This document shows positions 7,175 through 50,554 of a stretch of DNA of 64,000 bases, piece by piece. Position 1 is the stretch's first letter, and each line of letters begins with the position of its first letter. The notes below the pieces were generated by a model. That model did no database searches, was not told the origin of the DNA, and worked only from the letters and a program-made list of their open reading frames with translations. Position numbers and translations under genes: made by a program. Source of the stretch: Physcomitrium patens (Eukaryota > Streptophyta > Bryopsida > Funariales > Funariaceae); contig NC_037253.1 in NCBI RefSeq assembly GCF_000002425.4, positions 19,725,602-19,789,601 of the forward strand. Reading direction: 5' to 3'.

Positions 7175-7728
7175 TGTTATAGATATAGACATGTAAACTA
7201 GTAATTACCTATATAAATAGGTAAAAGTAAATAGAAGTAGATAAAAGTAAGTTAATTCTATAATATCTTCTATAAAAGCTTCTTAGAAGCTTTATAGATG
7301 GTGCTTTGACTTTATAGGTGTCTATAATTGACTTTTTGGATTAAAAAAGTTGTCAACAAGTTGGCCATGTGTCACACATATTAGCTTGAAAACTAATCTA
7401 ACTATGTGGCATACACATAGAAAAATTTTCCTTGTAAGTCAAGGCATGTGTCCTACAAATTCAACATATATTAGAAGCTCTAAAGAACATTGCCACGTAG
7501 CACCTAGTTAGATAGTATATATACAGACAAGAATAAAGCCTTCTTCACTCTTGTCAACTCTTTTTTTGATTCTAGTCTAGTTTTAAGAGTCTCAAGTTTT
7601 CTTATCTTTTGGCAATAAGCCATTCTATTTTTTTTTAATATACGTACTTCTTTATTTCTATTTTAATATCATTCTTTGACACAAATTTTATTAATTTATG
7701 CATCATCTTTTAGTTCATGTCCTTTATA
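7175..7728 (+). repeat. 5' LTR of chromovirus B
   Basis: 554 bp, from TGTTATAG to CTTTATA. TATATATA (about 7516-7523) precedes the predicted transcript start at 7547. It matches the 3' LTR except for a block of about 125 bp after the first TTAG (near 7381), which the 3' copy lacks. Confidence 0.8.
7547..7557 (+). promoter_or_regulatory. Predicted transcript 5' end (R start) of chromovirus B
   Basis: ACTCTTGTCAA lies 31 bases after the start of the TATA box. It pairs with the 11-base site at 7731-7741 at 9 of 11 positions. Both mismatches are transitions expected from methylated-C decay. The same word is kept in the 3' LTR (12902-12912). Confidence 0.6.
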
Positions 7729-7730
7729 AA

Positions 7731-7741
7731 TTGATAAGAAT
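7731..7741 (+). promoter_or_regulatory. Self-primer binding site of chromovirus B
   Basis: TTGATAAGAAT begins 2 bases after the 5' LTR. The ideal complement of the transcript start would be TTGACAAGAGT. A tRNA-iMet-like TACCAGAGC also lies further down (7752-7760), which is unusually far from the LTR. Confidence 0.55.
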
Positions 7742-7935
7742 ACACTTACAATACCAGAGCTTTGTCTTGTCTTGATTAAAAGTAGATTACTCCTTTCTCA
7801 TAATAAGACATAAGTATATTAGAAGTTACGGATTACCTTCTTCTAAATTGCTATTATTCTTAGTATTTTTTTTGTCCTCAAGTCCTTTCTTCTACTTATC
7901 TTAAGTGGTATTAGATATTTTTTTTTGAATATTAT

Positions 7936-8900
7936 TATGGCAGAGCTTGTTGAAATGAAGAATGCAATGGCACAAATACAAAAGCAATTGAGGGAATTGA
8001 TGCTTGCGATGCATCAATTTAGCTTACCACCATAAGAATCAACAAAAATAGCAAGAAGTGAGGATATAGAAATGATTAGAGCTACTTCAATATTTGTACC
8101 AAATCATGTCCCTCTATCTATGATAAAACATCCTTCAAGTATTAGAGAACTAAGAGTTACTTTGTCTAAGAAGTTTGATGGTACAAGATCTAAATTTTAA
8201 GGATTTATTAATTAAGTACAACTTATGATTGAACTTCAACCTCAAAACTATCCAACTCCAGGATCACAAGTTAGATTCATTGATACACTTCTTTCACGTT
8301 CAGCACTATCATGGTTTTCATCTTTTTTTGAAGGACCAAATCCAATATTGGATAATTTGGAGGTATTTTAGGCAAAATTTTAGACCATGTATGGAGAACA
8401 TGATGCAACTTGTGTTGCAACCAACAAGATCCATATTTTACAACAAAAAAATTGATTTGTAACATTATATATTTCATAGTTTTGACAACTTGTAATTGAT
8501 ATCAAGTGGAATGATATTGCACTTATTAGCCAATTTTTCTATGAATTATAATATGAAGTAAAGAAATTGATGCTCAACTTACTTGATTCTCAAACATTGA
8601 GTTAAGCAATTGACTTTGCTATAAAATTCGACAATCAACTTTTTAAATTTCGATTTGAGAATCATACAAACAGACCTCAATGTTACTACAATTTGATGGC
8701 AATACCAACATCTCTTCAATACATATATTTAGAAGTAGAAGATATACAAATTAATGCAATATATTTTAAATCTCTTACCGAACAAGAAAAGATTTGTCGC
8801 CCTCAAGAAGGATTGAGCTTATATTGTGGAGAATCTAATTACATTACTCAACATTATCCAAAGAAACAACAAAATCACAAAATGAGAAGCACATCTATCA
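7936..8900 (+). pseudogene. Chromovirus B gag
   Basis: It starts at ATG 7936 with a methionine-rich N-terminus predicted to be helical (MAELVEMKNAMAQIQKQL). The capsid segment (about 8150-8420) carries KKFDGTRSKF and LSWFSSFFEGP, homologous to the gag of C1. The nucleocapsid zinc knuckle lies near 8820-8875 as LYCGESNYITQHYPKK; the last cysteine is now tyrosine, a G-to-A change. There are many stops. Confidence 0.75.
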
Positions 8901-8939
8901 AAAAAGACAATGTATCAAAAAAAAAAAAAATTCTAACTA

Positions 8940-9680
8940 TAATAGGGACAGTGCAGTTGGAATCTTGTACAATTTTTAATGAAGGTCCTATCCTCTCTTC
9001 AAAACCCTCTTCTTGTTTTATAATAGATTTAAGTTTAAGATTTAATAATTATAAAATCTCAACCTTGATATATTTAGGAGCCTCAGCTTGTTTCTTAGAC
9101 GTAGAATTTGTTAAAAGTCATAAAATACTATTAGTATAAAAAACCAAACTTATTCATGTAGAAGTCATAGATGGTCATTTGTTGTCTTCTAGAGATATTA
9201 CTCATGAAACACTTCCCATAGAAGTAGCAACAAATGATCATAATAGTTGCATAATCTTTAATATAATTAGATCTCTTTTTAATTCAATTATTTTAGGTTT
9301 ATTATAGTTAGAAAAGTATAATTCTTATATAGATTGAATTTCTCCTACCCTTGACTTTTCTAAATGCATAATTAAGAGTGAAATTAATCCAATAGAAAGA
9401 CATAAGTTTAGCACAATTAAACCTACATTTATAGGTATAAGAGTTTTTTTACATGCTGCAAAAGAAGGATCACTTTGTGTCATTTATGCCATACTTATTT
9501 TTAATGACGCAAAGACTTCCAGTGGCATTCACAGCTAATATCAAGAATTTCAAGATGTATTTAAGAAGAAGAATGTGGATACTCTTCGAAAATATTGTCC
9601 CTATGATTGTTCAATTGACCTTCAAAGAGGAGCATAATTGCCATTTGGATCAATCTATAGTTTATCACAAAATGAATTAG
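8940..9680 (+). pseudogene. Chromovirus B protease and linker to reverse transcriptase
   Basis: The protease active-site region reads YLGASACFLD (about 9068-9100), where C1 keeps DLGAFACFLD; the catalytic aspartate is lost. The linker before the reverse transcriptase (9440-9680) matches the same segment in C1. Frameshifts separate the pieces. Confidence 0.65.
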
Positions 9681-10960
9681 CTGAATTCAAGGAATATAGT
9701 AAAGAGAATCTGACAAAGAATTTCATATGCCATTTCAAATCACCAGCAAGAGCTCCAATCTTATTTGTGAAGAAGAAAAATAGATCATTGCGAATATCTA
9801 TTAATTATTGAAGACTCAACAAGATCACTATTAAGAATAGTTACTTTCTATCTTTGATATCCAAACTTTTTGATGAATTGAATCAATCTAAGATCTATAC
9901 AAAAATAGATCTATAGAAAGTATATAATTTAGTATGTATTAAAGAAGGAGATGAATAGAATGTATTTTGAATTAGGTATGGATATTTTGAATACAATGTC
10001 ATGTCTTTTGGACTTACAAATGCATTGGCAGCTTTTCAACATCTAATAAATGGTGTTTTTTGAGAGTTTTTAGATGATTTTTTTATCTATCATGTAAACG
10101 ATATTTTAATCTATTCTAAGAATACAGATTAACATGAACTTCATATTTGTGGTGTGTTATAAAAATTAAGAAATACGAGACTCTATGCCACGATAGAAAA
10201 GTATGTATTCTATACTACTCAAGTCAACTTCTTAGGATACATCATTTCAAATGATGGACTTATGATGGATCCTAAGAAAGTTTAAACAATTATGGATTAG
10301 AAGATTTCAAAAATGATAAGAGATGTCTAATGTTTTTTGGACTTTGTCAACTATTATCGGATCTTCATCAAAGACATTTCTTAAGTTGCAGCTCCACTTA
10401 TACTTTTGACTTGCAAAGACGAACTTCAATGGAGCAAAGAAGCTGAAGCATCTTTTGGAACTTTGAAGTTAGCCTTTACTTTTGTACCAATATTGTATCA
10501 CGTTAACTTTTCTAAGGAATTTTTAATGGAAATCGATGCATCAAACTTTGCTTTGGGTGTCGTATTATAACAAATGCAAATAGATGATAAACTTCATCTA
10601 GTAGCTTTTCATTCCAAAAAATTTTCAACAACCAAAATTAACTATGAAATCCACAATAAGGAACTTCTTACAATTATAGATTCATTTTAAGAATGGCATC
10701 ATCATCTAGAAGGTACTTCTAATTTAGTCACAGTATATACGGATTACAAGAATCTTGAGTATTTCATGTCAACACATGTTTTAAATCATTGCCAAGCCCG
10801 TTGGAGCATGTCTTTATCAAGATTTGATTTCAAGATCACATATTGACTCTGAAAATAATAAGGTTTGTCAGATGTCCTTTCTAGATATTCTTATCTTACA
10901 CCAAAAGAAGGAGATGTATCTTTTGATTAGCAAAGAATAACTTTCTTGAAGCCAAAGCAT
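9681..10960 (+). pseudogene. Chromovirus B reverse transcriptase and RNase H
   Basis: Reverse transcriptase blocks are recognisable in order: APILFVKKK (about 9752), a decayed LRISINY block, TKIDL (about 9902), [16 protein letters not shown] (about 10000-10045) and a damaged YLDD box around 10087-10105. RNase H follows at about 10520-10900, with EIDASNFALGVV and [15 protein letters not shown]. In-frame TAG and TAA codons abound. This is the Tf1/sushi-style polymerase type. Confidence 0.75.
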
Positions 10961-12110
10961 TTTCATCTTTGAGTAATAAAATCAACATTGATTGTTGATT
11001 CAATCCTTGTGAAACAAATCTAATCAAGTATGTCTTCTGATCTTTTTATTCAAAATATCAAAAATCCTTCTTTTAAGTCTCAAGATACTTCTAAGTTTGA
11101 ATTCAAAAATAACTTACTCTATTTTGAAGGTCAATTATATGTTCCAAAAGAAGAAGCATGATTACTTGATTTTCAAGCACATCACGACTTTCTAATAGTA
11201 TGACATTTTGGATACAACAAAACTTTGGAGCTTATATCTATAGATTTTTGGTATCAAGATTTTAGCAGATTCTTATTAAGATTCTAAAAGTAGATATAAA
11301 ACTATTTTCGACATTCTAACCTCAAACTCATAGACAAACAGAGCATGTTAATCAAGTTTTGGAGTAATATTTAAGATGTACTATCAACTACCAATAAGAT
11401 GATTGGACAACTCTTTTGCCATTGACAGAGTTTGCTTATAATAATGTGATACATTATTCTATAAAATAGACACCTTTCTTTGTCAATTATGGTTATCATT
11501 CATGACTTGATACTTTTGACTTTTCAAAAGCTGATAATCTTGTGGCAAAAGATTTGGCAAATCATTTGTCAAAGCTACATGCAACAATAAAGGTACAGTT
11601 AAAAGAAGCTCAAGGACAACAAAAGATCAATGCGGATATCTATTGAAAGGATTAACAGCCATTCTATATGGGTGACAAGGTATGGTTACTTCATCCCAAT
11701 ATTAAGACTACTCATTCTTATGATAAGTTGGACTATTATAGGCTTAGACCATTTTCTATTTTTGTACAAATCAATCTAGTTGCATATTGTTTATACCTAC
11801 CAAAGTCAATGAAAATCCATCCACTATTCCACATGTCTCTTTTTGAACCATATAAGACAGTAGACATACCAAGAAGAAGGCAAGTTCCGTATTCTTCTAT
11901 AGAATTGGACAATAATGGAGAATTCAAAGTGGAAGAAGTCTTAGATTCAAGGTAGTGCCAAAATAAATTAGAATATCTTCTCTATTACTATGGATATGAT
12001 ATTCGTGAATGGATATAGAAGCCGGTAAAGAATCTTATAAATGTAGCAAAGGTAGTGGAGGCTTTTCATTAACAACATCCATCAAAATCAAGATGAAAAC
12101 CTTCCGTATA
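10961..12110 (+). pseudogene. Chromovirus B integrase (internally deleted) and chromodomain
   Basis: The zinc-binding N-terminus (about 11090-11250, HFGYNKTLELI) runs straight into the segment around the last catalytic residue (about 11255-11390). About 370 bp that hold the first catalytic aspartates in C1 are missing. The C-terminus is readable at 11668-11955. The chromodomain spans about 11908-12080 (VEEVLDSR, then YGYDI). The deletion alone would make this copy non-functional. Confidence 0.75.
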
Positions 12111-12189
12111 AAAGAAACAAGATGTAGGCAAGATAACATTCTACTTTCATCTTTGTTTGTAGCTTCTTTGTGGTTGTGATGCTAAAGAG

Positions 12190-12615
12190 ATGGAAAACCA
12201 ATAACTAATGGATTCGATTGAAGAGCCTTTGTTTTTTGACTTGCCAGACAATACATTGCAATTGTCACAACCTTCAAGACGATACAATTGAGATGAAGAT
12301 CCTCAAGAACGACATGTTTTTCTTCAAATAGATGGCAAGATACAACGCGTTTGGTATCATGACTTTAGAAGAGACCTCCGATGTTTGGTGATTTTATTAG
12401 AGGTAGGAATAACTCCTGATAGTGCTTCAAATATTTTATTTGAAAGAAGTTATGAAAGCTTGAAGAATGATCAAATAATAGGATGGTCTTCTCATCCTAG
12501 TATGAGATACTATCGATAGTGTAGAGGCCCTATCAACCATCTTTGAAAAGAATAAAGATCTGAGTATGTGGCAAATATAATTTTTCGCATCATAGATTTA
12601 CTCAACATATGATGA
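12190..12615 (+). pseudogene. Chromovirus B accessory ORF3
   Basis: An open stretch after pol, from ATG 12190, with only a few stops. It encodes a protein of roughly 140 residues containing RVWYHDFRRDLRCLVILL (about 12350-12403) and a C-terminal segment ending GPINHL and SEYVANI. The C-terminal part aligns with ORF3 of C1, where the same region reads GLMNHLPREQQLEFIA. I recognise no known domain. A pyrimidine tract ending in TAG (about 12140-12162) precedes the start and could be a splice acceptor. Confidence 0.6.
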
Positions 12616-12656
12616 TCGCTCCTCATTGAACTCATCTCTAGAAGGGAGGAAGGTAA

Positions 12657-13085
12657 TGTCACGGAGATGTACATATAAGCTAGTAATTACTTGTATAAAT
12701 ACATAGAAGTGAATAGAAGTAGATAATAGTAAATTAATTCTATAATATCTTCTATAGAAGCTTTTTAAAAGCTTCATAGATGTTACTTTAACTTTATAGG
12801 TATCTATAATTAACTTTTTAGATTAAAAAAGTTGTCAAAAAGTTGGCCATATGCCACACATGTTAGATAGTATATATAGAGATAAGACTAAAGCCCTATT
12901 TACTCTTGTCAACTCCTTTCTTGCTTCTAGTCTAATTTCAAGAGTCTCAAGTTTCCTTGTCTTTTGACAATAAGCCATTCTAGTTTTTTTTTAATATACG
13001 TACTTCTTTATTTCTATTTTATTACTCTTTCTTTGACATGGATTTCATTGGTTTATGCATCATCTTTTAGTTCATGTCCTTGATA
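12657..13085 (+). repeat. 3' LTR of chromovirus B
   Basis: 429 bp, preceded by the purine tract AGAAGGGAGGAAGGTAA (12640-12656). It lacks about 125 bp present in the 5' LTR. TTAG repeats flank the lost block, suggesting a microhomology deletion. Confidence 0.8.
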
Positions 13086-13754: not shown

Positions 13755-14092
13755 TGTTGAAGTAAGTCACTTAGTAAAAGGTATTACCTTAGGTAAGTTG
13801 TTAGTAGTCAAAAGAAGGCAAAAGAGTATAAAGAAGTTAATATGGTGGTATGTAGGATTTATAAGTGGCAGCTAGGATTTATAGGTGGCAGTTAGGTTAA
13901 GAAAGAACCTAGTGTTTAGTTGGATGAAGTAGAAATAGATGTAGTATTAATGGAAGTTGCCTCATTAGTTGGCAACGACCACTTATAAGTAAGAAGTGTT
14001 GGAAGTAAGAGTAATCTTACTCCATACTTCCTTTTTGTGTACAACCTTGCTGATGCTAAGTGTTGTGACTTCAAAGTACTTGTTCTTCAATA
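13755..14092 (+). repeat. 5' LTR of the copia element
   Basis: 338 bp starting TGTTGAAGTAAG. The 3' copy is 318 bp and lacks one unit of a short duplication (GGATTTATAAGTGGCAGCTA-like, about 13855-13893). Confidence 0.9.
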
Positions 14093-14108
14093 GGTTATGG
14101 ATCCACTC
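14093..14108 (+). promoter_or_regulatory. Primer binding site of the copia element (half-tRNA-iMet type)
   Basis: GGTTATGGATCCAC directly abuts the LTR. It matches the complement of the anticodon arm of plant initiator tRNA-Met (GGTTATGGGCCCAC) at 12 of 14 bases. Both mismatches are transitions. Drosophila copia and yeast Ty5 use the same internal tRNA region. Confidence 0.65.
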
Positions 14109-17165: not shown

Positions 17166-17785
17166 GGAAGGAACACATATTTCCTCAAGTAAGTAAAAAA
17201 AATATGTCAATATTGCTCTTCCTGCTGATCCATTAAGTTTGTCTGATGTAATGAAGTCCATGAATGCTATGGAAAAAGAATACAAATCACTCATGGACAA
17301 TGAAACATAGAAATTGAGTCAACTTCCACCAAATCAATCTTCAATTGGTTGTAAGTGGGTGTTTAGAACCAAAAGGAATGCAATGGATAATATTGTGAGA
17401 TATAAGGCTAGATTGGTTGCCAAAGGCTACTCATAAGTTGCTGATATTGATTTTAATGAGATATTTGCTCCTGTGGCCAAATTCACCACCATTAGAAGCA
17501 TTGTAGCCATTAGAGCAGTAATGGACTTAGAGATGCATCAAATAGATGTAAAGATGGCATTCTTGAATGAAAGCTTAAAAGAAGATATCTACATGGATTA
17601 ACTTCAAGGATTTGTACAAGAAGGCAATCAACTTCTTGTTTGTAAGTTGAGGAAATCTTTGTATGGACTAAAGCAATCTCCAAGGACATAGTACCAACGC
17701 ATTGATACTTTCTTTGTAACTAAAGGATTTATAAGGAGTGAGGCTAATCATTCCTCATATGTAATGCAATCAAATGAATTCATAT
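17166..17785 (+). pseudogene. Copia reverse transcriptase, first half
   Basis: It carries GCKWVFRTKRN, RYKARLVAKGYS, FAPVAKFTTIRSIVAI, HQIDVKMAFLNESLKEDIYM and CKLRKSLYGLKQSPR. TGG and CAA codons have become stops, for example after DNET and GYS. The gene is cut at 17785 by chromovirus C1 and continues at 23676 in the same frame. Confidence 0.93.
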
Positions 17786-17805
17786 TGTTAGGGACATAGT
17801 CCTTA

Positions 17806-17871
17806 GAACCTTCTAGAGACAAGTTTTTAGAATCTTCTAGAAGCAAGTCTCTAGAACCTTCCAGAAACTTC
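17806..17871 (+). promoter_or_regulatory. Heat-shock element cluster in the C1 U3
   Basis: Three inverted-repeat arrays of the GAAnnTTC type. 17854-17871 is GAACCTTCCAGAAACTTC, four perfect alternating units. 17830-17842 is GAATCTTCTAGAA, three units. 17806-17813 is GAACCTTC followed by GAG. They lie about 45-110 bp before the predicted transcript start. Such arrays bind heat-shock factors. The 3' LTR keeps all three with sequence changes that preserve the units. Confidence 0.75.
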
Positions 17872-17914
17872 CTAAATAGGAGTATATATTGGAATCGAGG
17901 CTGAACAGTTCTTC

Positions 17915-17925
17915 AGTCTCGACAA
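17915..17925 (+). promoter_or_regulatory. Predicted transcript 5' end (R start) of C1
   Basis: AGTCTCGACAA starts 32 bases after the TATA box start. It is the exact reverse complement of the 11 bases at 18055-18065. The same offset is seen in C2. Confidence 0.75.
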
Positions 17926-18054
17926 CACATCTCTTGGAGCTCTAGCTCACTTCTCTGGTGTTGTTCTTGTATTCATCTGATTAATCTAGTTCTTGCTAGT
18001 TCTTCTTGAACTTCTTGTTAGATCTCGAGTCTATATTTCTGTATCCGTGACAAT

Positions 18055-18065
18055 TTGTCGAGACT
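18055..18065 (+). promoter_or_regulatory. Self-primer binding site of C1
   Basis: TTGTCGAGACT begins 2 bases after the 5' LTR end. It pairs 11 of 11 with the predicted RNA 5' end, the arrangement known from fission yeast Tf1. A tRNA-iMet-like TATCAGATC lies at 18080-18088, too far from the LTR for a normal tRNA site. Confidence 0.7.
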
Positions 18066-18332
18066 TCACTCACCTCAGATATCAGATCTAGTTTCTTCCT
18101 CATTAGAGTGTGGATTATCCCTCTGCTTGGAAGTATACCAGCATTTTAGAGGTTGCGAATTACCCTCCTCTAAACTGATACTTCTTTTGTTACAATATTG
18201 GAGTCTTATTCTTCTTGGAGAGAGTGAATTACTCCTTTTTTTGAAGCTCTTAAGGCATTTTAGAGGATGTGGAGTACCCTCCTCTAAACCAATATTGTCT
18301 TCTTGTATAGTCATTTCTGTCCTTTTCTTAGA

Positions 18333-19380
18333 ATGGCCGGAGGCCAAGACATTAATATGACAAAAAGTTCGGAGTCCAAGTTGGATGCTATCATGAATGC
18401 CCTCGCTATGTTATCGCAAAGAACTGCAAAGATTGAAGGAGTCGTGGCAAGGCTTCATAATGATGGAGCATCTGGGATGGCACAATCTAGGTTGCACCAG
18501 TCTCAAACTTCTGCACTTGGAGAAGCAACTTTGCCTCAAGTTCGACAAGCACCATTGGTTCTACAACATAAGGAGCCCCAAGTTAGCCTTCCCGACAAGT
18601 TTGATGGTACGCGTTCCAAGTTTCGAGGATTCATCAATCAAATCAGGTTGATAACAGTTTTATAGCCCAAACGCTATCCAACGGAGAAGTCACGTGTTCG
18701 GCTTATTGGAACCTTACTTACAGGGCAAGCTCTATCATGGTTTACTCCTTTGTTTGAGAAACGACCGTCTATACTAAACAACTTTGAAATCTTTTTGGAG
18801 GCATTTGTAGAAGCATTTGGTGAACACGACAAGGTTCGATGGGCTACAACAAAGATCCGGTCACTACGACAAGGGATGCGCTCTACATCAGTCTATGCAT
18901 CGGACTTCAAGCAATTAGCATGCAACATCAATTAGGATGAAGAAGCATTGATGAGTCAATTCTATTGGGATTTAAGGGACGATGTGAAGGATTTGCTGTT
19001 AACTCTTCCTAATCTGCAAACGCTCAACAAAGCTATTAGCCAAGCTGTGAAGTGTGATAACTGCCTATTTCAACGTCGCCAAGACCAACGTTCAAGACAA
19101 CATATGGTTCGCTACGTCCCAACTATGTCGACAAGCAGCGTGAATTTACATTCAAAGGTAGAAGACATGCAAATTGATGCGGTATGTGTCAAATCTCTTA
19201 CTCTAAAAGAAAAAAAAGTAGCGTATGGAGGAAGGTCTATGCTTGTATTGCGATGAAGAAGGCCACAAACTTGGAAACTACCCCAAGAAGCAAAATCGAT
19301 GTATTGTCAAGACTAGGGGTGCATTTGTTCAGGAAAACGAGGATGCCCAGCCACAATAGGAACCATGCGGCTGGATAGTG
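18333..19380 (+). pseudogene. C1 gag
   Basis: It starts at ATG 18333 (MAGGQDINMTKSSESKLDA). An N-terminal region with coiled-coil-like spacing (ALAMLSQRTAKIEGVVARL) comes first. The capsid follows (about 18590-19060) with DKFDGTRSKFRGFINQIRL, LSWFTPLFEKR and KIRSLRQGM. The zinc knuckle CLYCDEEGHKLGNYPKK lies at about 19238-19290, with its last cysteine changed to tyrosine. It is out of frame with the capsid because of an A8 run at 19210-19217 that C2 shares. In-frame TAG at 18663 and 18934 replace CAG and TGG (C2 keeps TGG at the second site). Confidence 0.88.
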
Positions 19381-19990
19381 AAATATCGCAACAACAACCA
19401 AGTTCCTTTCTTTCTGCTCAACTTGCCTTTTGCTTTATAATCCCTTTGCTTATTAGCCCTCAGAAACTGAGAACGTGAGCATTATTAGATTTAGGAGCAT
19501 TTGCTTGTTTCTTAGACAAAGAATTTACAAAGCATCATAAGATTCCTTTAGTACAAAAATCCAAACATGTTCACGTTGAGGTCATAGATGGGCGACCTTT
19601 ATTGTGTGGTAGTGTCACCTACGAATCAGAACCTATAGAAGTGATGTTTAAGGACCATAGTAGTCATATTATTTTCAATATTATTAGAACTCCATCAAAT
19701 CCTGTTATTCTTGGTCTTTCCTAGTTGGAAAAGCATAACCCATCTATAGATTGGAGGTTGCGGAAGATGACCTTTCCCACAAAACTACCCAAGAGTAAGC
19801 CTAGTCAAAAATCCTGAATAAAAAAATCCTTATTCATTGGAGCAAGAGCGTTTATAAGATCATCCAAGGAAGGTATACCGTTTGTCATTTATGCGGCTCC
19901 AACTACCAAGGAGAAGATCTCGACAGCAAGTATACCTGAGCAATATAAGGATTTTAAAGACGTGTTTCAAAAGAAGAATGCCGACATATT
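19381..19990 (+). pseudogene. C1 protease
   Basis: DLGAFACFLDKEF (about 19482-19522) is the active-site loop; the aspartate is kept and the serine is now leucine. VEVIDGRPL and SNPVILGLS are conserved with the other copies. A TAG at 19723 replaces the tryptophan seen in C2. Confidence 0.82.
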
Positions 19991-21330
19991 ATTGGAACAT
20001 CGACCATATGATTGCGCCATAGACTTATAGGAAAGAGCACAACCGCCTTTTGGCCCAATCTACAATCTATCGCAGACAGAGTTAGCAGAGTTGCGAAAGT
20101 ACATCAATGAGAATCTAGCCAAGAACTTCATCCATCATTCAAAATCGTCAACTGGAGCACCCATCTTATTTGTGAAGAAGAAAGATGGCTCGTTGCGGAT
20201 GTGCATGGACTATCGAGGCCTCAACAAGGTAACAAAGAAGAATCGTTATCCATTATCCTTCATTTCTGGTCTCTTAGAACAACATGGATGTACAAGGATC
20301 TTTACAAAAATTGATCTAAGAGGAGCTTACAACCTCGTACGAATGAAAGAAGGAGATGAGTGGAAGAGAGCGTTCCGTACAAGGTATGGCCATTTTGAGT
20401 ATAATGTCATGCCCTTTGGTCTTACCAATGCTCCAGCGATCTTTCAACATATGATGAATGACATTTTTCAAGAGCACCTTGACGATTTTGTTGTCATCTA
20501 TTTGGATGATATTCTAATATTCTCCAAAAACGAAGAAGAGCATGAAAAGCACGTTCGTTTGGTCTTGAAAAAACTACGCGAGCGAAGACTATATGCCAAG
20601 TTAGAAAAGTGTTAATTTCACCAAATAGAGATGGAGTTTTTGGGATTCGTTGTGACTATTGAAGGCTTGAAGATGGACCCCAAGAAGGTGGAAGCAATCG
20701 TGTCCTGGGAGGTTCCGAAGACGTTTAGAGACGTACAATGCTTTCTTGGTTTTGCTAACTTCTATCGGATCTTCATCAAGAATTACTCTCAAGTTGCTGC
20801 TCCTCTCACTCGGTTGACATGCAAGGATAAGCTGGAATGGGGACCTCTAGCGGAGAAGGCGTTTCAAGACCTGAAGATTGCATTTATTACGGCTCCAATC
20901 TTGATACATCTAGACTTTATAAAGGTCTTTTATTTAGAAATTTATGCTTCGGATTTTGCTTTGGAAGCTGTACATTCACAAATGGGAAAAGACAAGAAGC
21001 TCCATCTGATTACATTCTATTCTTGAAAGTTCTCTGCTGCTGAAATCAATTATGAGATCTACGATAAGGAATTTCTTGCTATAGTGGATTCTTTCCAAGA
21101 ATGGCATCACTTTCTTGAAGGAGCTGCACATCCAGTGACCATATACACAGATCACAAGAATTTGGAATATTTCATGTCGGCTCGAGTTCTAAATCGACGT
21201 CAAGCTCGGTGGAATATGTCGCTATCTAGGTTCAATTTTGTTATCACTTATCAACCTGGAAAGGACCAAGGACTATCTGATGCCTTATCGAGGAGATCGT
21301 ATCTTATACCAAAGGTTGGAGAAGGAGCGT
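19991..21330 (+). pseudogene. C1 reverse transcriptase and RNase H
   Basis: The RT is open from 20031 to 20615. It contains [58 protein letters not shown] and an intact [15 protein letters not shown] (YLDD at about 20500-20511). After one stop at 20613 the connection domain (20631-21026) keeps FLGFANFYRIFIKNYS. RNase H (about 20940-21300) has IYASDFALEAV, EINYEIYDKEFLAIVDSFQEW, TDHKNLEYF and a C-terminal LSDALSRRS. Only a few stops separate it from an intact enzyme. It would copy genomic RNA into DNA inside the particle. Confidence 0.92.
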
Positions 21331-22640
21331 TTTATCAACAATGTATGACATTGTTGAAGCCAGAGCAATTTCGACTTTGCACTACTATTATGCCAATTGA
21401 TACTAACTTCCTGAATCAGGTACGTGCCATGACCATTGAAGATTCAGTAGCCATTGATATCAAGCAGCGTGCCAATGATGACAAGTTCAAGGTGGAGGGA
21501 GATCTTTTATACTTTGAAGAGCGATTGTATATCCCAAAAGAACCAGCACGACTCCGAGTTCTTCAATCTTGCCACAATTTTCCAGCTGCGAGATATTTTG
21601 GATTCAACAAGACCTTGGAGCTTATTTCTCGAGATTTTTGGTGGCCTCAAATGTGAAAAGATGTGAAAGATTTTGTCCTCTCCTGCGACATCTGTTCAAG
21701 ATCCAAGAATCCTCAACATCGCCCTTATGGACTCCTACAGCCATTGCCAATTTCACGTCGACCATGGTCTTCAATTTCCATGGACTTCATCACGGATCTT
21801 CCATCATCGAACTCATTTGACAGCATCTTTGTCGTGGTAGATCGGCTTACAAAGATGGAGCACTTTGTTCCTTGCAAGAAGACATCGTCCAGTGAACTCA
21901 TAGCAAGGCTCTTTCTCGATAATGTGTATCGATATCATGGACTACCAGATGATATCGTATCAGATCGAGGAACCTAATTCATATCAAAGTTTTGGAGATC
22001 TCTCTTTGAGATACTGAAGGTGGATATCAAGCTTTCTTCAGCTTTTCATCCTCAAACTGACGGCCAAACGAAACGGATGAACTAAGTCTTGGAACAATAT
22101 TTACGATGCAGCATCAATTATCAGCAAGACGATTAGACCACATATCTGCTGCTAGCCGAGTTTGCATATAACAACACCCTCCATGCGTCGATTCAATACA
22201 CACCATTCTTTTCCAACTATGGATATCATCCGAAGCTTGATTTATTGAGTCCGTCAACAAATAACAATCCAACAGCTGAAGGATTTGCAAAACAACTATC
22301 AGAGCTTCAAAATACATTGAAGCTTCAATTACAATCCGCTCAAGAATCCTACAAGGCGTTTGCAGATAGATTTCAGAATCAAGCACCTACTTTCAAAATT
22401 GGAGATAAAGCATGGCTTCTTCGATGGAATATCAAGACCAAGCAACCATGTGATAAATTGGACTATCGAAGATTGGGACCATTTATCATGTAGAAGCAAA
22501 TCAATCTAGTGGCATACCGTCTGGAATTATCGGCTTCTATGAAGGTACATCCAGTCTTTCATGTTTCTCTATTGGAGCTTAATCGAGAGTCGTCTTTTTT
22601 TGAAAGAGTGCAATGTCCGCCACCTAGTATTGACATCGAG
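21331..22640 (+). pseudogene. C1 integrase
   Basis: The HHCC zinc domain (about 21570-21700) reads HNFPAARYFG then CDICSRSKN; the second histidine is now tyrosine, while C2 keeps it. The core has ISMDFITDLP with the first aspartate (about 21775) and DDIVSDRGT with the second (about 21945). In the GQTE box the glutamate is now lysine (about 22071). The C-terminus (22245-22493) has the GDKAWLLRWNIKT block. In-frame TGA at 21654 replaces a TGG kept in C2. The insertion enzyme is therefore dead at several points. Confidence 0.9.
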
Positions 22641-22832
22641 AACCACGAGGTATACGAGGTTGAAAAGGTACTGGATTCACGGTGAAGGTGGGGCAAGTTG
22701 GAGTATCTTGTTCATTGGTGCGGCTACGACATTAATGAGCGAACGTGGAAGCCAGTTGAAAATCTTGCTAATGCGCCGCAAAAGGTACAGGAGTTTCATC
22801 AACAACATCCTCATAAACCTAAGCCAGTTTGA
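22641..22832 (+). pseudogene. C1 chromodomain
   Basis: The plus strand encodes YEVEKVLDSR, a stop, then GKLEYLVHWCGYDINERTWKPVENL, a typical C-terminal chromodomain ending at TGA 22830-22832. Aromatic cage positions (Y, W, W/Y) are present. It probably targets integration to methylated histone H3 (family knowledge). Confidence 0.85.
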
Positions 22833-22993
22833 TGATAGCTTCCTTCTAAAGCTTACTCACCTAAGAATATAAGAAAGGAAGAGAACACCACCAAAATTTA
22901 CAGTTGATGTAGTTATTTTTTCCAAGATAAAGTAGAATTTTTTCAGTAGCCATAGTTTGGTCTTCTGATATAGATAGCCAAGAGATAGATACT

Positions 22994-23323
22994 ATGCCAG
23001 TCAGATTATCTCAACCGAGTAGCTCACGAAGGTGATCCCGAGATGAAGAACTACCTACACCACGACGACGACGGAGGATACCGAGTAACCAATTACTAGT
23101 GCTTGTATTTGAGTTCGAGCCTGCTTATGATGGTCAGCTAGAAGGCATGTTTGCAGGACAATTTCACAATGAGGACACGAAAGTTCATACTTGATCAGAA
23201 GTCGAAGGAGTGGACCACTACCGTTGGCTTCAAGGGTTGATGAACCACTTGCCTCGTGAACAACAGTTGGAGTTTATAGCAGACGTTATGCAACAGATCT
23301 TCATTTTCTTGCATTAGTACTGA
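22994..23323 (+). pseudogene. C1 accessory ORF3
   Basis: A reading frame of about 109 codons from ATG 22994 to TGA 23323, about 160 bp after the pol stop. Three internal stops (TGA after SSSRR, TGA after TKVHT, TAG near the end) look like decayed CGA, CGA and CAG codons. The N-terminus is basic, with a run of five arginines. The middle has VFEFEPAYDGQLEG and AGQFHNEDTKVHT. The C-terminus has VDHYRWLQGLMNHLPREQQL. C2 keeps the same frame, and B, A and D1 carry relatives. I recognise no domain. A TTTTTTCAG acceptor-like site sits at 22931-22939. Confidence 0.65.
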
Positions 23324-23361
23324 TTAACAACAACATTGCTTCTCAGAGACCTTGAAGCTAA

Positions 23362-23375
23362 AGGAGGGGGTGATA
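23362..23375 (+). promoter_or_regulatory. Polypurine tract of C1
   Basis: AAAGGAGGGGGTGA directly precedes the 3' LTR. It would prime plus-strand DNA synthesis. Confidence 0.85.
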
Positions 23376-23670
23376 TTAGGGACATAGTCCTTAGAACCTT
23401 CTAGAGACAAGTTTTTAGAATCTTCTAGAAACAAGTCTCTGGAACCTTCTAGAAGCTTCCTAGTTAGTAGAAGTTGTTTGAAAAGCTTCCTAAATAGGAG
23501 TATATATTGGAATCAAGGCTGAAGAGTTCTTCACTCTCGACAACACATCTCTTGAAGCTCTAGCTCACCTCTCTGGTGTTGTTTTTGTATTCATCTGATT
23601 AATCTAGTTCTTGCCAGTTCTTCTTGAACTTCTTGTTAGATCTCGAGTCTATATTTCTATGTCCATAACA
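23376..23670 (+). repeat. 3' LTR of chromovirus C1
   Basis: 295 bp, ending CCATAACA and followed by the target duplication CATAT. The heat-shock arrays are conserved. The transcript-start word differs at one base (ACTCTCGACAA). Confidence 0.92.
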
Positions 23671-23675
23671 CATAT

Positions 23676-24663: not shown

Positions 24664-24981
24664 TATTGAAGTAAGTCACTTAGTAAAAGATATTATCTTA
24701 GGTAAGTTACTAATAGTCAAAAAGAAGCAAAAGAGTATAAAGAAGTTACTATGGTGGTATATAGGATTTGTAAGTAGCGGCTAGGTTAAGAAAGAACCTA
24801 GGATTTAATTGGATGAAGTAGAAATGGATGTAACGTTAATGAAAGTTGTCTCATTAGTTGGCAATCACCACCTATAAGTAAGAAGTATTGGAAGTAAGAG
24901 TAATCTTACTCCATACTCCCTTTTTATGTGCAACCTTGCTGATGCTAAGTGTTGTGACTTCAAAGTACTTATTCTTCAATA
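24664..24981 (+). repeat. 3' LTR of the copia element
   Basis: 318 bp, ending CTTCAATA, followed by GAAAT (24982-24986). About 90 percent alike to the 5' LTR by eye. Confidence 0.9.
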
Positions 24982-24986
24982 GAAAT

Positions 24987-28075: not shown

Positions 28076-28344
28076 AAAAGATAACTTTTTTATTTTTTAG
28101 CTCTCATTTCTTTTTTATATATAATCATTAAATCTTAGCTTAGATTTAATTTTCTATTTCTTCCTTATTTAGATCTAGAGAACAAAAAATACTTTAGTTT
28201 CTTTAAATTAGAAAAAAAATACTCATTCTTATCTTAGATAGTTGTTAAAATACTTTTATAGAAAATTCTTCTTTTTATTCAATAGCATTTTTGAACGTCA
28301 ATTCTAGGTTCTTCTCCTTTATAAGTCGTCCCAGATGGTCGCTA
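28076..28344 (+). other. 3' untranslated region of the Tat/Athila-like element
   Basis: AT-rich, no coding signal. No clear polypurine tract before the LTR; the last bases read CAGATGGTCGCTA. Confidence 0.5.
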
Positions 28345-29552: not shown

Positions 29553-29868
29553 CCCACACGTAGAAAACTTACGTTATAAGCTAAGGCATGTATTTTGTAA
29601 AGTCAACGCATATTAGAGGTTCTATAGAACATCACCATGTAGCTCTTAATTAGATAGTATATATTGAGGCAAGAGTGAGGCCTTCTTCATTCTTATCAAC
29701 TCTTTTCTTGCTTCTACTGTAGATTTAAGAATCTCAAGTTTCTTTGTCTTTTGGCAATAGCCATTTCAGTTTCTTTTTAATATACATACTCTTTTATTGC
29801 TATTTTTTTAATTTTCTTTTAATTCAATTTTTCTAGATTTATGCATCTTCTAGTTCATATCCTTGAAA
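29553..29868 (+). repeat. Chromovirus A 3' LTR, right part (U3 end, R, U5)
   Basis: It resumes the LTR cut at 1637 with CCCACACGTAG. A TATATATT box (about 29658-29665), the decayed R start ATTCTTATCAA (about 29690) and a U5 ending CATATCCTTGAAA follow, as in LTR B. Confidence 0.75.
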
Positions 29869-37796: not shown

Positions 37797-37807
37797 ATTC
37801 TTATCAA
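37797..37807 (-). promoter_or_regulatory. Self-primer binding site of D2
   Basis: On the minus strand TTGATAAGAAT lies 2 bases after the LTR. It pairs 11 of 11 with ATTCTTATCAA at the predicted transcript start (37980-37990, minus strand). Confidence 0.6.
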
Positions 37808-37809
37808 AC

Positions 37810-41064: not shown

Positions 41065-41392
41065 TATTAGATATTAGCTCTAGGAAGTTGTAGAAGATTC
41101 TAGAAGGTTCTAGAGAAGCTTTGTAGTTTGTAGAAGCTACTTGAGAAGTTTTTATGGTTGTAGAAGCAGCTTGAGAAGCTTCCTAACTCATAGAAGCTGC
41201 TTAAGAAGCTTCTTAGCTTGCGGTATATATAGGAACCAACATTGAGGGGATCCTTAGTCTCGACAATACACCTCTTAGAGCTCTAGCTCACCTCTCTAGT
41301 GTTGTTTTTATATTCATTTGATTAATCTAGTCTTGCTCATTCTTCTTGAGCTTTTTCTTTAGATTTTCAGTCAATATTCTAAATTCGTAATA
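41065..41392 (+). repeat. 5' LTR of chromovirus C2
   Basis: 328 bp with TATATATA (41224-41231) and R start AGTCTCGACAA (41256-41266). U3 contains three diverged tandem copies of a unit of about 35 bp with the core GTAGAAGCTRCTTGAGAAG. Confidence 0.88.
41093..41110 (+). promoter_or_regulatory. Heat-shock element in the C2 U3
   Basis: GAAGATTCTAGAAGGTTC is four perfect alternating GAA/TTC units at 2-base spacing, followed by GAG. The identical array is at 46786-46803 in the 3' LTR. Further GAAGCTTC palindromes follow downstream. Confidence 0.75.
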
Positions 41393-41394
41393 AT

Positions 41395-41405
41395 TTGTCA
41401 AGACT
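41395..41405 (+). promoter_or_regulatory. Self-primer binding site of C2
   Basis: TTGTCAAGACT lies 2 bases after the LTR and pairs 10 of 11 with the R start at 41256-41266. The mismatch is a G-to-A transition. A tRNA-iMet-like TATCAGAGC lies at 41420-41428. Confidence 0.65.
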
Positions 41406-41668
41406 ACACTCATCTTACATATCAGAGCTAGTTCCTTCTTATTAGAGTGTGGATTATCCCTCTACTTGAAGGTGTTGGCATTTTAGAGGTTGTGGATTAC
41501 CCTCCTCTAAACTAATATTTTTTCTATTATAATATTAGAGTCTAATCTTCCTTGGAGAGAGTGGATTATCCCTCTTCTTGAAGATTTAAGGTGTTTAAGA
41601 GGTCATAGAGTACCCTCCTCTAAACCAATATTGTCTTCTTGTAGAGTCATTTCTTTCCTTCTTTTAAA

Positions 41669-42720
41669 ATGGCCTGAGGTCAAGATATTAGTATGGCTGA
41701 AAGTTCGGAGTCCAACTTGGACACCATTATGAATGCTCTTACTATGTTATCATAGAAAATTGTAGAGATTGAAGGAATCATTGCAAGACTTCATAATGAT
41801 GGAGCATCTGGGATGGCACAATCAAAGATTCACCAGCCTCAAGCTGTAGCACCAAGAGAAGTAGCTTTGCCTCTAGTTCAACAAGGACTATTGATCTTAC
41901 AATGAAAAGAGCCCCAAATTAGTCTTCTAGACAAGTTCAATGGTATGCGTTCTAAGTTTCGAGATTTTGTCAACCAAGTTAGATTGATAATAGCTCTCTA
42001 ACTTGAACGCTATCCGACAAAGGAGTTACGTCTTGGATTGGTTGGAACTTTGCTCACGGGACAAGTTCTATCATAGTTTGCTCATTTATTTGAGAAAAGA
42101 TTGTCAATTTTGAACAACTTTGAAACTTTTTTGAAGGCGTTTGTAGAAACATTTGGCAAACATGACAAGGCGCAATGGACTACAACAAAGATCCGATCGC
42201 TACGACAAGGGGTACGCTTTGCGTCAGTCTACATATCGAATTTTAGACAATTAGTGTGTGACATCAATTGGGACGAGAAAGCATTAATGAGTCAACTTTA
42301 TTAGGGCTTGAGGGATGACATGAAGGATTTGTTATTATCTCTTTTCGATCCACGAATGCTCAACAAAGCCATTAGCCAAGCTATGAAGTGCAATAACCGC
42401 CTATTTCAACATCGCCAAGACCAACACTCAAGACAATATAAGGCTCACCATGCTCCAACTATGTCAGCAAGTAGCCTCAATTCACATTCAGACATGGAAG
42501 ATATACAAATTGACGCAGTACATGTCAAATCTCTAAGTTTAGAAGAAAAAAAAGTAACATATGGAGGAAGGACTATGCTTGTATTGCGGTGAAGAACGCC
42601 ATAGAGCTGGAAACTGCTCCAAGAAGCAAAATCGACGCATTGTCAAGATCAAAGGCACATTTATTTAGGAAAACAAAGATGCCCAGCCACAATAAGGATC
42701 GTGTGGCTGGACAATTCAAT
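41669..42720 (+). pseudogene. C2 gag
   Basis: It begins at ATG 41669, parallel to C1 gag, with MNALTML, the capsid block around 42050-42420 (LNNFETFLKAFVETFGKHDK; KIRSLRQGV) and a zinc-knuckle region near 42572-42620. The same A8 run as in C1 (42546-42553) puts the knuckle out of frame. A TAG at 42302 replaces a TGG kept in C1. Confidence 0.82.
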
Positions 42721-43380
42721 ACCACAACAACAATCAGGTTCCTCTCTTTTCGCTCAGCTTGTCCATTGCTTTACCATTCTTCTATCTTTTGGCCCTCAAA
42801 AACTAAAAACCATAGCATTATTAGATTCAAAAGCATCTGCTTACTTTCTAGATGAAGAATTTGTTAAGCATCACGAGATTCTTCTAATACAAAAATCTAA
42901 ATCCGTTCATGTAGAAGTAATAGATGGATGACTTTTATTGTTTGGTAGTGTCACCTATGAATCAGAACCTATAGAGGTGACGTTTAAAGACCATAGTAGT
43001 TATATTATTTTTAATATTATTAAAATCCCGTCAAATCCTATTATTCTTAGTCTTTCTTGGTTAGAAATGCATAACCCATCCATACATTGGAGATTACGAA
43101 AGATGACATTTCTTATAGAATATTTTGAGAGTAAGCTTGTTAGAAAATTCCAAATCAAAAATCCTTATTTATTGGAGCAAGAGCATTTATTACATCGTCT
43201 AAGGAAGGCACACCATTTGTCATTTATGTGACTTCAACTAGGAGAGAGAAGATTTTGAAAGCAAATATACTGGAGCAATATAAAGATTTTGAAGACGTGT
43301 TTGAAAAGAAGAACACCGACATGCTACCGGAGCATCGACCATATGATTGTGCAATAGACTTGCAGGAATGAGTATAACCA
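42721..43380 (+). pseudogene. C2 protease
   Basis: The active site reads LLDSKASAYFLDEEF (about 42820-42865): D and S are kept and glycine is now lysine. VEVIDG and LSWLEMHNPSIHWRLRKM follow. Frameshifted relative to gag. Confidence 0.78.
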
Positions 43381-44720
43381 CCTTATGGCCCAATCTACAA
43401 TTTGTCGCAGATAGAGTTAGCAGAGTTGCAAAAGTACATTCACGAGAATCTAACCAAAAACTTCATTTGTCATTCGAAGTTGCCAACTGGGGCACCAAAC
43501 TTATTTGTGAAGAAAAAAAATGACTCGCTGCGGATAAGCATGGATTATTGAGATCTCAACAAGGTGACAAAGAAGAATCGTTATCTATTATCGTTGATAT
43601 CAGGTCCTCTAGAATATCTTGGGCGTGCAAGGATCTTTATAAGGATTGATCTAAGAGGAGCTTACAACCTCGTGCGAATCAAGGAAGGAGACAAATGGAA
43701 GACAGCTTTTTGTACAAGGTATGGCCATTTTGAATATAATGTCATGTCTTTTGGTCTTATCGATGCTCTGGTGATCTTTCAACACATGATGAATGACATC
43801 TTTTAGGAGCACCTTGACGATTTTGTTGTCATCTATCTAGATGATATTTTGATATTTTTCAAGAACGTAGAAGAGTATGAAAAATACGTTCGTCTGGTCC
43901 TTGAAAAATTCCACGAGCGAGGACTTTATGCCAAGTTGGAGAAGTGCTTGTTTAACCAAATTGAGATGGAATTTTTGGAATTCATCGCAACTACGGAAGG
44001 CTTGAAGATGGATCCTACGAAGGTCGAAGGAATCGTATCATGGAAAGTTCCAAAGACGATTAAAAATGTACAATGTTTTCTTGGCTTTGCTAACTTCTAT
44101 TGAATCTTCATCAAGAATTATTCTCAAGTTGCTGCTTCGCTCACTTGGTTGACATGTAAAAACAAGCTTAAATGGGGACCTCTAGTGAAAAAAGTATTTT
44201 AAGATCTTAAAACGACATTTACTATGGCTCCAATCTTGGTACATTCGGACTTTGCAAAGGCCTTCTATTTAAAGACTCATACTTCAGATTTTACTATGGT
44301 AGTTGTACTTTCACAGATAGGCATAGACGAGAAGCTTCATCCGGTTGCATTCTATTTTTTAAAGTTTTTTGCTGCTGAGATCAATTATGAGATCCGTTGT
44401 AAAGAACTTCTTATGAAAGTGGTTTCTTTCCAATTGTAGTGTCACTTTTTCAAAGAAGTTACACATCTCGTGATCGTATATATGGATCATTAGAATTTGG
44501 AATACTTCATGTCCACTCACGTTCTGAATCGTCGTCAAGCTCGATGGAATATGTTGCTATCTAGGTTTAACTTTTTTATTACTTATTGGCCTGAGAAGCA
44601 ACAAGGACTATCCAATGCATTATCAAGGAAATCGTATCTAGCGCCAAAGGCTGGAGAAGCAGCGTTTGATCAACAGTGTACAATATTATTGAAGTCGGAA
44701 TAATTCAGGATTTGTTGTGC
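43381..44720 (+). pseudogene. C2 reverse transcriptase and RNase H
   Basis: It has [38 protein letters not shown] and an intact YLDDILIF box (about 43836-43860). A TAG at 43804 replaces a CAA kept in C1, and a TGA at 44101 replaces a CGG. RNase H (44224-44640) includes FYLKTHTSDFTMVVVLSQIG and [16 protein letters not shown]. Confidence 0.85.
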
Positions 44721-45960
44721 TATAGTGCCAATTGATGTTGACTTCCTCAACTAAGTAGATACTGCAACTATTGGAGATTCTATAGGCCTTGATATCATGC
44801 AACATGTCAATAATGACAAGTTCAAGGTGGAAGGAGATCTTTTATACTTTGAGGAACAGTTGTATATTCCAAAGGAACCAACACGACTCCAAGTTCTCCA
44901 ATCTCAATACAACTTTCCAACTGCAGGACATTTTGGATTCAATAAGACCTTGAAACTTATTTCTCGAGATTTTTGGTCGCCCCAAATGTGGAAGGATGTC
45001 AAGGATTTTGTCCTCTCTTGCGACATTTGTTCAAGATGTAAGAATCCTCAGCATCGTCTTTATGGTCTTCTTCAGCCATTGCTTATTCCACGTCAACCAT
45101 GGTCTTTAATTTCCATAGACTTCATTACGGACCTGCCGCCATTGAATTCATTTGACAACATCTTTGTTGTGGTAGATCGGCTTACAAAGATGGCATACTT
45201 TGTCCCTTGCAAAAAAACATCGTCAAACAAATATACAGCAAGGCTCTTCTTTGATAGTGTGTATCGATATCATGGTTTACTACATGATATCGTGTCTGAT
45301 AAAAGAACCCAATTTGTATCAAAGTTCTAGAGATCTCTCTTTGAGATATTGAAGGTGGATATCAAGATTTCTTTGGCTTTCCATCTTCAAACTGACGGCC
45401 AAACGGAACAAGTGAATCAAACTTTGGAGTAGTATTTACGATGCAACATCAACTATCAGCAAGTTGATTGAACTGCATATCTATTATTAGTCGAGTTTGC
45501 ATATAACAACATCCTTCATGCAACGACTTAACAAACACCATTCTTTTGCAACTATGGATATCATCTGAAGCTTAATTTGTTGAATCCGTCAAGTAATAAC
45601 AACCCGACAATTGAAAGATTTGTAAAACAACTATCGAAGCTTGAAACTACGTTGAAGCTTTAATTAAAAACTACCCAAGAAGCTTACAAGGCGTCCGTAG
45701 GTGAATTTTGGAATCAAGCACTTACTTTCAAAATTGGAAATAAAGTATGGCTGCTTCGACGAAAATATCAAAACCAAGCAGTCATACTTCGAATATCAAA
45801 ACCAAGCAGTCATGTGATAAGTTGGACTACTAGAGATTAGAACCATTTTTTATCCAGAAGCAAATCAATCTAGTGGTGTATCGTCTGGGATTATCGGTTG
45901 CTATGAAGATATACCCAATCTTTCATGTTTCTTTGTTGGAGCCTTATCAAGAGTTGTCTT
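44721..45960 (+). pseudogene. C2 integrase
   Basis: 177 codons are open (44797-45330), with AGHFGFNKTLKLI, CDICSRCKN, ISIDFITDLP and DIVSDKRT. GQTEQVNQTLE with an intact glutamate follows (about 45399-45430). All three catalytic acids are present, unlike C1, but the first zinc histidine is lost and stops occur at 45329 and 45429. A local duplication of about 45 bp (CAAAACCAAGCAGTCAT repeated) lies at 45757-45815. Confidence 0.85.
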
Positions 45961-46200
45961 GTTTTAAAAGAGTGTAATATCTGCCACCTAGTATTGAAAT
46001 TGAGAACCACAAGGAATACGAGATAGAAAAGGTAGTAGATTTGTGGCGTAAGTAGGAGAAATTGGAGTACCTAGTGTATTAGAACAGCTATGATATTAAT
46101 AAGCGCACATAGGAACCAGAGGAAAATCTTATCAATGTGTCACAAAAGATATAGAAGTTTCATCGACGCTATCCTCAGAAATCTAAGCCCTTTCGATGAA
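45961..46200 (+). pseudogene. C2 chromodomain
   Basis: KEYEIEKVVDLW followed by LEYLVYxNSYDINKRTxEPEENL (about 46008-46130), a decayed chromodomain aligned with that of C1. Confidence 0.75.
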
Positions 46201-46378
46201 AGTTTTTCACTGAAGTCCCTTCTCCTCGAAGCCTCTTAATCCTCAGCCTTACAAAGAAGGGAGAAAAGGAACCTCTAAAAGACATAGTTAGAGACTATAA
46301 ATCTGTAACCTGAGCCCATTCTTCTATGTTTAGTGCTTATTTTTTTGGTCTAATATGAATAGCAAAGAGATAGATACC

Positions 46379-46708
46379 ATATCAATCATGTCCTCTCAAT
46401 CGAGTATCCCACAAAGATGACCCCGAAATGAAAAACCACCTATACGACAAAGACGATGGAAGATACCTAGTAACAGGTCGCTAGTGATTGTGTTTGAGGT
46501 AGAACCTATCTATGGTGATCTTCGCGAAGGAATATTTGTAGGGCATTTTCACAATGAAGACACGAAAGTTCATGCTTAATCAAAAATTGAAGACGTAGGA
46601 TACTATCATTGGTTACAAGGACCAATGAACTACTTGTCATGCGAACAATAATTGGAGTATATTACAGACACTATGCGAAAAAAATTTAACTTCTTACATT
46701 GGTACTGA
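46379..46708 (+). pseudogene. C2 accessory ORF3
   Basis: It aligns codon for codon with C1 ORF3 to a TGA at 46706-46708. Conserved parts are RRWKIPSNRSLVIVFEVEP, GHFHNEDTKVHA and YYHWLQGPMNYL. Internal stops again sit at former CGA/CAA positions. The frame has been kept without indels across both copies. Confidence 0.62.
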
Positions 46709-46744
46709 CTTGCAATAGCAATGCTTCTCAAAGACCTCAAAGCT

Positions 46745-46757
46745 AAAGAGGGAGTGA
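46745..46757 (+). promoter_or_regulatory. Polypurine tract of C2
   Basis: AAAGAGGGAGTGA immediately before the 3' LTR. Confidence 0.8.
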
Positions 46758-47086
46758 TGTCAAGGACATATACTAGGAAGTTGTAGAAGATTCTAGAAGG
46801 TTCTAGAGAAGCTTTGTAGTTTGTAGAAGCTACTTGAGAAGTTTTCAAGCTCGTGGAAGCTGCTTGAGAAGCTTCCTAGTTGGTGGAAGCTACTTGAGAA
46901 GCTTTCTAGTTTATAGTATATATAGGAGCCGAGATTGAGGGGATCCTCAGTCTCGACAACACACCTCTTGGAGCTCCAGCTCACCTCTCTAGTGTTGTTC
47001 TTGTACTCATCTGATTAATCTAGTTCTTGCTGATTCTTCTTGAGCTTCTTGTTTAGATTTCCAATCAATATTCTAAATTCGTGACA
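46758..47086 (+). repeat. 3' LTR of chromovirus C2
   Basis: 329 bp, TGTCAAGGAC to TTCGTGACA, with the same heat-shock array and the R start AGTCTCGACAA (about 46950-46960). Confidence 0.88.
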
Positions 47087-50543: not shown

Positions 50544-50554
50544 ACTTTTATCAA
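50544..50554 (-). promoter_or_regulatory. Self-primer binding site of D1
   Basis: Minus strand TTGATAAAAGT, 2 bases after the LTR. The D1 3' LTR R start predicts TTGACAAGAGT; both differences are C-to-T or G-to-A. Confidence 0.5.

Follow-up and report, generated by a model that had tools for sequence, protein, structure and literature searches.

Self-priming by retrotransposons of the Tf1/sushi type is known from fungi and vertebrates. Elements of this group also occur in non-seed plants, according to the relevant passages of PMC10085805, and the corresponding part of PMC6317226 predicts self-priming for chromoviruses of the Tcn1 clade (REXdb) in mosses and club-mosses; the word “fern” is absent from the main text of the latter paper. 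A member of the same clade, SM-Tcn1, was described from Selaginella, and in the pertinent sections of PMC2864245 no self-priming was seen in it, nor were Tcn1-like clones obtained by PCR in 26 ferns and horsetails. For Physcomitrium patens itself, the copy counts given in PMC7466625 include 5092 complete copies of the transcribed element RLG1; a text search of the open-licence literature did not find “self-priming” in that paper. Since PMC6317226 already makes this prediction for moss and club-moss elements of the Tcn1 clade, self-priming in plants had been predicted before, and the novelty that a preliminary description of the present locus had implied is not supported; the moss find is real but mostly ordinary. 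What is added here is a co-change of primer and primer-binding site (PBS) between families within one copy-rich genome, and a matching layout, built on other words, in contigs that are probably from a fern.

The window, i.e., the whole stretch of 64,000 nucleotides of P. patens DNA that was analysed, carries five elements, C1, C2, B, D1 and D2 (Table 1), which we regard with high confidence, jointly with self-priming as their mechanism, as decayed copies of two Tcn1-like chromovirus families of the Tf1/sushi group. The LTR ends of C1 are fixed, as had been described, by the target duplication CATAT at 17781-17785 and 23671-23675, and the K2P distance between its two LTRs is 0.127. The self-primer word (R word) in the 5′ LTR starts 32 nt after TATATA, and the PBS, which begins at LTR end +3, i.e., after a 2-nt spacer, is the exact reverse complement of this word in 11 of 11 positions, so that both of these points of the preliminary description were borne out.

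Table 1. Positions of the retrotransposon features in the window; R, self-primer word; PBS, primer-binding site.
Feature	Position	Strand	Remark
C1, Tcn1-like chromovirus	17786..23670	+	CATAT TSD, LTR comparison, domains; nested in copia element
C1 5′ LTR, TGTTAG...GTGACA	17786..18052	+	
C1 TATA box TATATATT	17883..17890	+	32 nt ahead of R word
C1 R word AGTCTCGACAA	17915..17925	+	putative RNA 5′ end
C1 PBS TTGTCGAGACT	18055..18065	+	2 nt past LTR
C1 reverse transcriptase piece (PF00078)	20031..20612	+	
C1 RNase H pieces and integrase zinc-binding start (PF17919, PF17917, PF17921)	20616..21653	+	two pieces, stop between
C1 integrase end: SH3_Tf2-1 (PF24626) and chromodomain (PF00385)	22401..22829	+	broken by stops
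C1 3′ LTR R word ACTCTCGACAA	23533..23543	+	1 change
C2, second C-family element	41080..47086	+	5′ start approximate; LTR K2P 0.132
C2 R word AGTCTCGACAA	41256..41266	+	
C2 PBS TTGTCAAGACT	41395..41405	+	10/11
B, decayed AT-rich element	7175..13085	+	LTR K2P 0.123; flanks ATAAA/ATAAG, ends read by eye
B R word ACTCTTGTCAA	7547..7557	+	
B PBS TTGATAAGAAT	7731..7741	+	one C-A mismatch and one G-U
D1 5′ LTR R word ACACTTGTCAA	50722..50732	-	
D1 PBS TTGATAAAAGT	50544..50554	-	
D1 3′ LTR R word ACTCTTGTCAA	39098..39108	-	
D2 R word ATTCTTATCAA	37980..37990	-	
D2 PBS TTGATAAGAAT	37797..37807	-	11/11
R word ATTCTTATCAA in LTR remnant of element A	29689..29699	+	

The pairing was compared with chance by matching each PBS to 2000 mononucleotide shuffles of its LTR, where for D1 and D2 a fixed stretch of 240 or 300 nt was taken as the LTR. 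The 11/11 match of C1 was reached by none of the 2000 shuffles, and the same was true of the 11/11 match of D2. C2, for which the same layout as in C1 had been claimed, indeed has it (10 of 11 pairs, P=0.002 against the shuffled LTR). In the same test the 9/11 pairing of B (P=0.35) and the 8/11 pairing of D1 (P=0.73, with a second site that ties with the R word) were not significant by themselves. The distance from TATA to the R word (31-32 nt) and from the LTR end to the PBS (2 nt) is constant in C1, C2, B and D2, the LTR ends of B and D2 being judged by the TGACA/TGATA motif. No TGG, by which alone a tRNA-type PBS was judged, was found at 0-5 nt past the LTR end in C1, C2, B, D1 or D2. A complementarity of at least 10 bp between the 5′ LTR and a site 0-5 nt past the LTR was found, B and D1 falling individually short of it. 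The existence of a B/D family with a different word was upheld, except that the word of D2 had been named wrongly and is ATTCTTATCAA rather than ACTCTTGTCAA; the further statement that B and D1 differ by transitions only fails for D1, the 5′ LTR word of which, ACACTTGTCAA, has a transversion. The part of the window in which D2 sits (34001-38000) has a GC content of 19%, and the D2 words look decayed by C>T/G>A.

Other repeats surround these elements. The LTR pair 13757-14093 / 24666-24982 belongs to a copia element that is split by C1, and GGTTATGG follows its 5′ LTR. Two 1.2-kb repeats (1637-2839 and 28344-29546, 97% identical) are probably the LTRs of an element that had gone into the LTR of A and that encloses B and the copia element; a tRNA-like TGGTGCG follows the 5′ copy. 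The stretch 62262-62480 encodes part of a Pollen Ole e 1-like protein (PF01190), a plant gene near the repeats. Within the window, Rfam at the gathering threshold gave no match and ARAGORN no tRNA gene.

The protein domains and the reverse transcriptase (RT) were used to place the elements. The chromodomain PF00385 of C1 was detected at 22686-22829 (E=4.4e-11), where a stop splits the domain, and SH3_Tf2-1 matched pieces of all three elements C1, C2 and B; for C2 and for B one piece each was scanned, and neither gave a chromodomain match. The RT tree comprised 34 rows with few named references and was built without Tf1, sushi and Cryptococcus Tcn1, two rows (L041 and L190) being omitted for stops. 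In this tree a branch of 23 rows, with a support of 99/97, includes C1 and Morchella and excludes three Tanacetum rows, which stand for the seed-plant chromoviruses. The neighbours of C1 are a row from the same genome (L182), L001, P0004, an Adiantum fern protein and rows of a ‘Trichormus’ MAG, with Morchella nearby. By its sequence, the RT of C1 is thus assigned to the Tcn1-like clade of the Tf1/sushi-like group. Scans of viral contigs found no relative.

The recurrence of the layout was followed in the genome (470,438,890 bases in 101 contigs, 470 Mb). Including the window's own, the places that were scored numbered 40 of 2541 for C1, 40 of 10638 for B, 40 of 2623 for C2 and 150 of 36050 first-look candidates for the RT. 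The leaders taken were 30 C1-like, 30 B-like and 20 C2-like, chosen because their match extended to the PBS or almost so, together with 20 that belong to RT copies with long open frames; this last set is “recent” by its open frames alone. One row was dropped per set because of gaps or because it was unplaced (L114, L175, L141 and the unplaced long-frame L212). Pairing was complete, at 11/11, in 14/19 long-frame, 16/29 C1-like, 2/19 C2-like and 2/29 B-like placed leaders. An exact pair together with TATA and the 2-nt spacer was present in 13 of the 20 long-frame leaders, whereas 20 rounds of dinucleotide shuffling gave a mean of 0.00; such shuffles served as the control for the R/PBS scans, reversed sequences being unsuitable because reversal preserves inverted pairs.

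The changes at pairs 2, 6 and 8 had been described as compensatory between the families. The logic of the comparison was that the pairing of each R word with the PBS of its own copy can be set against the pairing after swapping between families: the AGTCTCGACAA family (n=67) pairs at 10.19 of 11 with its own sites and at 7.30 when swapped, and the ACTCTTGTCAA family (n=29) at 9.45 and 7.50, respectively. The co-change between families at these three pairs therefore holds across copies. The family-wide test of R/PBS covariation that the preliminary description had proposed was positive in this between-family sense. Inside each family the two sites change independently of one another, which by the criterion of that description counts against covariation there, with double changes observed and expected by independence of 1 and 0.72 (C1-like), 2 and 3.05 (C2-like), 0 and 0 (long-frame) and 7 and 6.69 (B-like). 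Because the B-like double changes only reach independence, the perfect match of D2 is weak evidence; the 11/11 pairing itself stood, and its use as proof of compensation was dropped. Standard pairs result in six of the seven B-like double changes, a C>T with a G>A yields standard pairs by itself, and two of these doubles (L142 and L143) may represent one event; the clearest single exceptions within families are L132, where pair 7 went from G-C to C-G, and L121, where pair 6 went from C-G to T-A. Among the changes from the commonest words, transitions account for 18/18 (C1-like), 27/35 (C2-like), 5/5 (long-frame) and 43/58 (B-like), and C>T or G>A for 17/18, 25/35, 5/5 and 41/58, respectively. 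The long-frame set is mostly intact, for which reason the independent variation within families is read as post-insertion decay of dead copies; placement in this set required 8 of the 11 R-word letters, and its absence of R variation is partly selection. An extra conservation of R and PBS was also considered and dropped, as it was not consistently above the surroundings: of the 303 windows in the C1-like set, R holds rank 110 and PBS rank 119 (slightly more conserved); of the 350 in the C2-like set, 264 and 197 (not more conserved); and of the 585 in the B-like set, 211 and 479, the PBS being less conserved there.

Relatives outside the genome came from an RT-alignment scan of bacterial genome records, which yielded 75 loci resembling eukaryotic contamination. 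The exact 11-nt pair with TATA and a spacer of 2 was found in seven of them (L001, L003, L004, L005, L007, L009 and L062), whereas dinucleotide shuffles of the 75 loci gave means of 0.90 at any spacer and 0.10 at spacer 2. A scan that allowed one mismatch marked 22 of the 75 and had no valid control; exact pairs alone were used. L001 carries the C-family word and belongs to AVDCRST_MAG81, presumably from soil crust, going by the name. The other six come from the ‘Trichormus’ MAG and have different words, AAGGCGAACAA in L003, L005, L009 and L062, AAGGTGAACAA in L004 and CTCTTGATCAA in L007, each of which is paired with its own PBS. Plant-type retrotransposons with a self-priming layout inside a cyanobacterial MAG record appear to represent contamination. 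Trichormus azollae is the symbiont of Azolla, and PRJEB19522 is an Azolla metagenome study according to the pertinent part of PMC5901025. An Adiantum fern protein (P0048), with 77% RT identity, points in the same direction, and the self-primer loci of this MAG are probably of Azolla fern origin.

The best explanation for the two Tcn1-like families, and one that we consider highly probable, is self-priming by their own 11-nt RNA. Transcription would begin at the 11-nt word, some 32 nt downstream of the TATA box; it is the TATA distance of 31-32 nt that suggests this word as the 5′ end of the transcript. The RNA 5′ end would then fold back onto the complementary site 2 nt past the 5′ LTR, the RNase H of the element would presumably cut after nt 11, and the 11-nt RNA could in turn prime the minus-strand DNA. 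The self-priming layout of the Tf1/sushi type, as originally proposed, is supported by the geometry, the own-versus-swapped pairing, the RT tree, the chromodomain and the lack of TGG at the LTR end; overall, the observations of the preliminary description were confirmed in part and its interpretation was supported in part.

Priming by a tRNA would leave the 11-nt match incidental or make it part of some other leader fold, involved in packaging or translation control, and such a fold could also account for a conserved pairing of the 5′ end. This reading also draws on a 9-mer, TATCAGAGC, which is identical to part of the initiator-tRNA-Met site and which lies 10-14 nt past the self-PBS in 52 of the 88 placed leaders (18/29, 8/16, 13/24 and 13/19; the count leaves out 3 dropped and 8 unplaced rows); in the window, TATCAGAGC occurs at 41420 and TACCAGAGC at 7752. 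However, TGG precedes the 9-mer in only two of the 88, L225 and L226, which have the complete TGGTATCAGAGC at 1251 of the element's strand, no TGG lies at 0-5 nt from the LTR end of the window copies, where tRNA sites lie, and families with unrelated words have a complementary site at the primer position, all of which makes tRNA priming very improbable. The 9-mer is absent, with at least 3 mismatches, from the seven exact-pair contaminant leaders, and the complete TGGTATCAGAGC is carried by four other contaminant loci (L026, L027, L029 and L033), in which the scan found no exact self-primer pair. Priming at such a distance from the LTR would not be expected to leave a normal LTR terminus, so that the 9-mer is likely due to chance or a relic. 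It is very improbable that the leaders have two primer sites, a self-primer site and an initiator-tRNA-Met-like one kept as a relic or back-up of tRNA priming; if they did, such two-site leaders would show how one priming mode replaced the other.

An origin of the R/PBS match in chance or in the base composition of AT-rich, decayed repeats, matches like that of D2 being products of parallel deamination, would agree with the dominance of C>T and G>A among the changes and with the lack of significance of B and D1 alone, but it is hard to reconcile with the shuffles for C1, with the 13 of 20 leaders and 7 of 75 loci set against their controls, and with the own-versus-swapped contrast between the families. 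This noise reading is extremely improbable and largely refuted for the families, and could still apply to the single copies B and D1. A third alternative is compatible with self-priming and concerns only the origin of the co-change between families, which might come mainly from the primer being copied into the PBS during plus-strand synthesis and not from selection for pairing; from general knowledge of reverse transcription, the PBS would then track R automatically. B, however, has ACTCTTGTCAA in both LTRs and TTGATAAGAAT as its PBS, and several other copies keep a variant PBS beside an unchanged R, observations that post-insertion decay also explains, and copying as the main cause appears possible though rather unlikely.

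Self-priming was also considered at the level of RNA folding, using 20 leaders: the five window copies, seven contaminant and eight long-frame leaders, the latter two groups being picked for exact pairs. At least 10 of the 11 R:PBS pairs were predicted in 18 of the 20, 15 of the 20 having been selected for exact pairing, and the leaders of B and D1 had 0 and 6 predicted pairs, respectively. The folding energy of the whole leader was ordinary when compared with shuffles (z -0.12 for C1 and -0.88 for C2). In the Tf1 element of fission yeast, as far as described in the relevant parts of PMC7175516 and PMC10085805, the 11-nt RNA 5′ end is complementary to the PBS, which is the layout found in the window, and the central duplex of Tf1 is predicted in most of the leaders folded too. 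The two systems differ in the downstream duplex of the Tf1 “pretzel” (LTR with the stretch past the PBS), which was unsupported in the 20 leaders folded (z -1.9 to 1.2), in the plant host, and in that cleavage of the RNA is here a presumed step.

Closer to the window elements are the plant members of the Tcn1 clade. SM-Tcn1 of Selaginella is, in the part of PMC2864245 that describes it, likewise of the Tcn1 clade and from a non-seed plant. The clade as treated in the corresponding passages of PMC6317226 showed no essential difference from the window elements and has in common with them a Tf1/sushi-like RT, a chromodomain, no tRNA PBS, a non-seed plant host and a self-primer that is predicted to pair over 10 bp or more, 0-5 nt past the LTR. 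RLG1, a chromodomain gypsy element that is very abundant according to the pertinent part of PMC7466625, may be the same as the elements studied here, in a genome with 36,050 first-look RT candidates, of which 150 were scored. With RLG1 being transcribed, as that part of PMC7466625 reports, P. patens would be a convenient place to test self-priming in plants.
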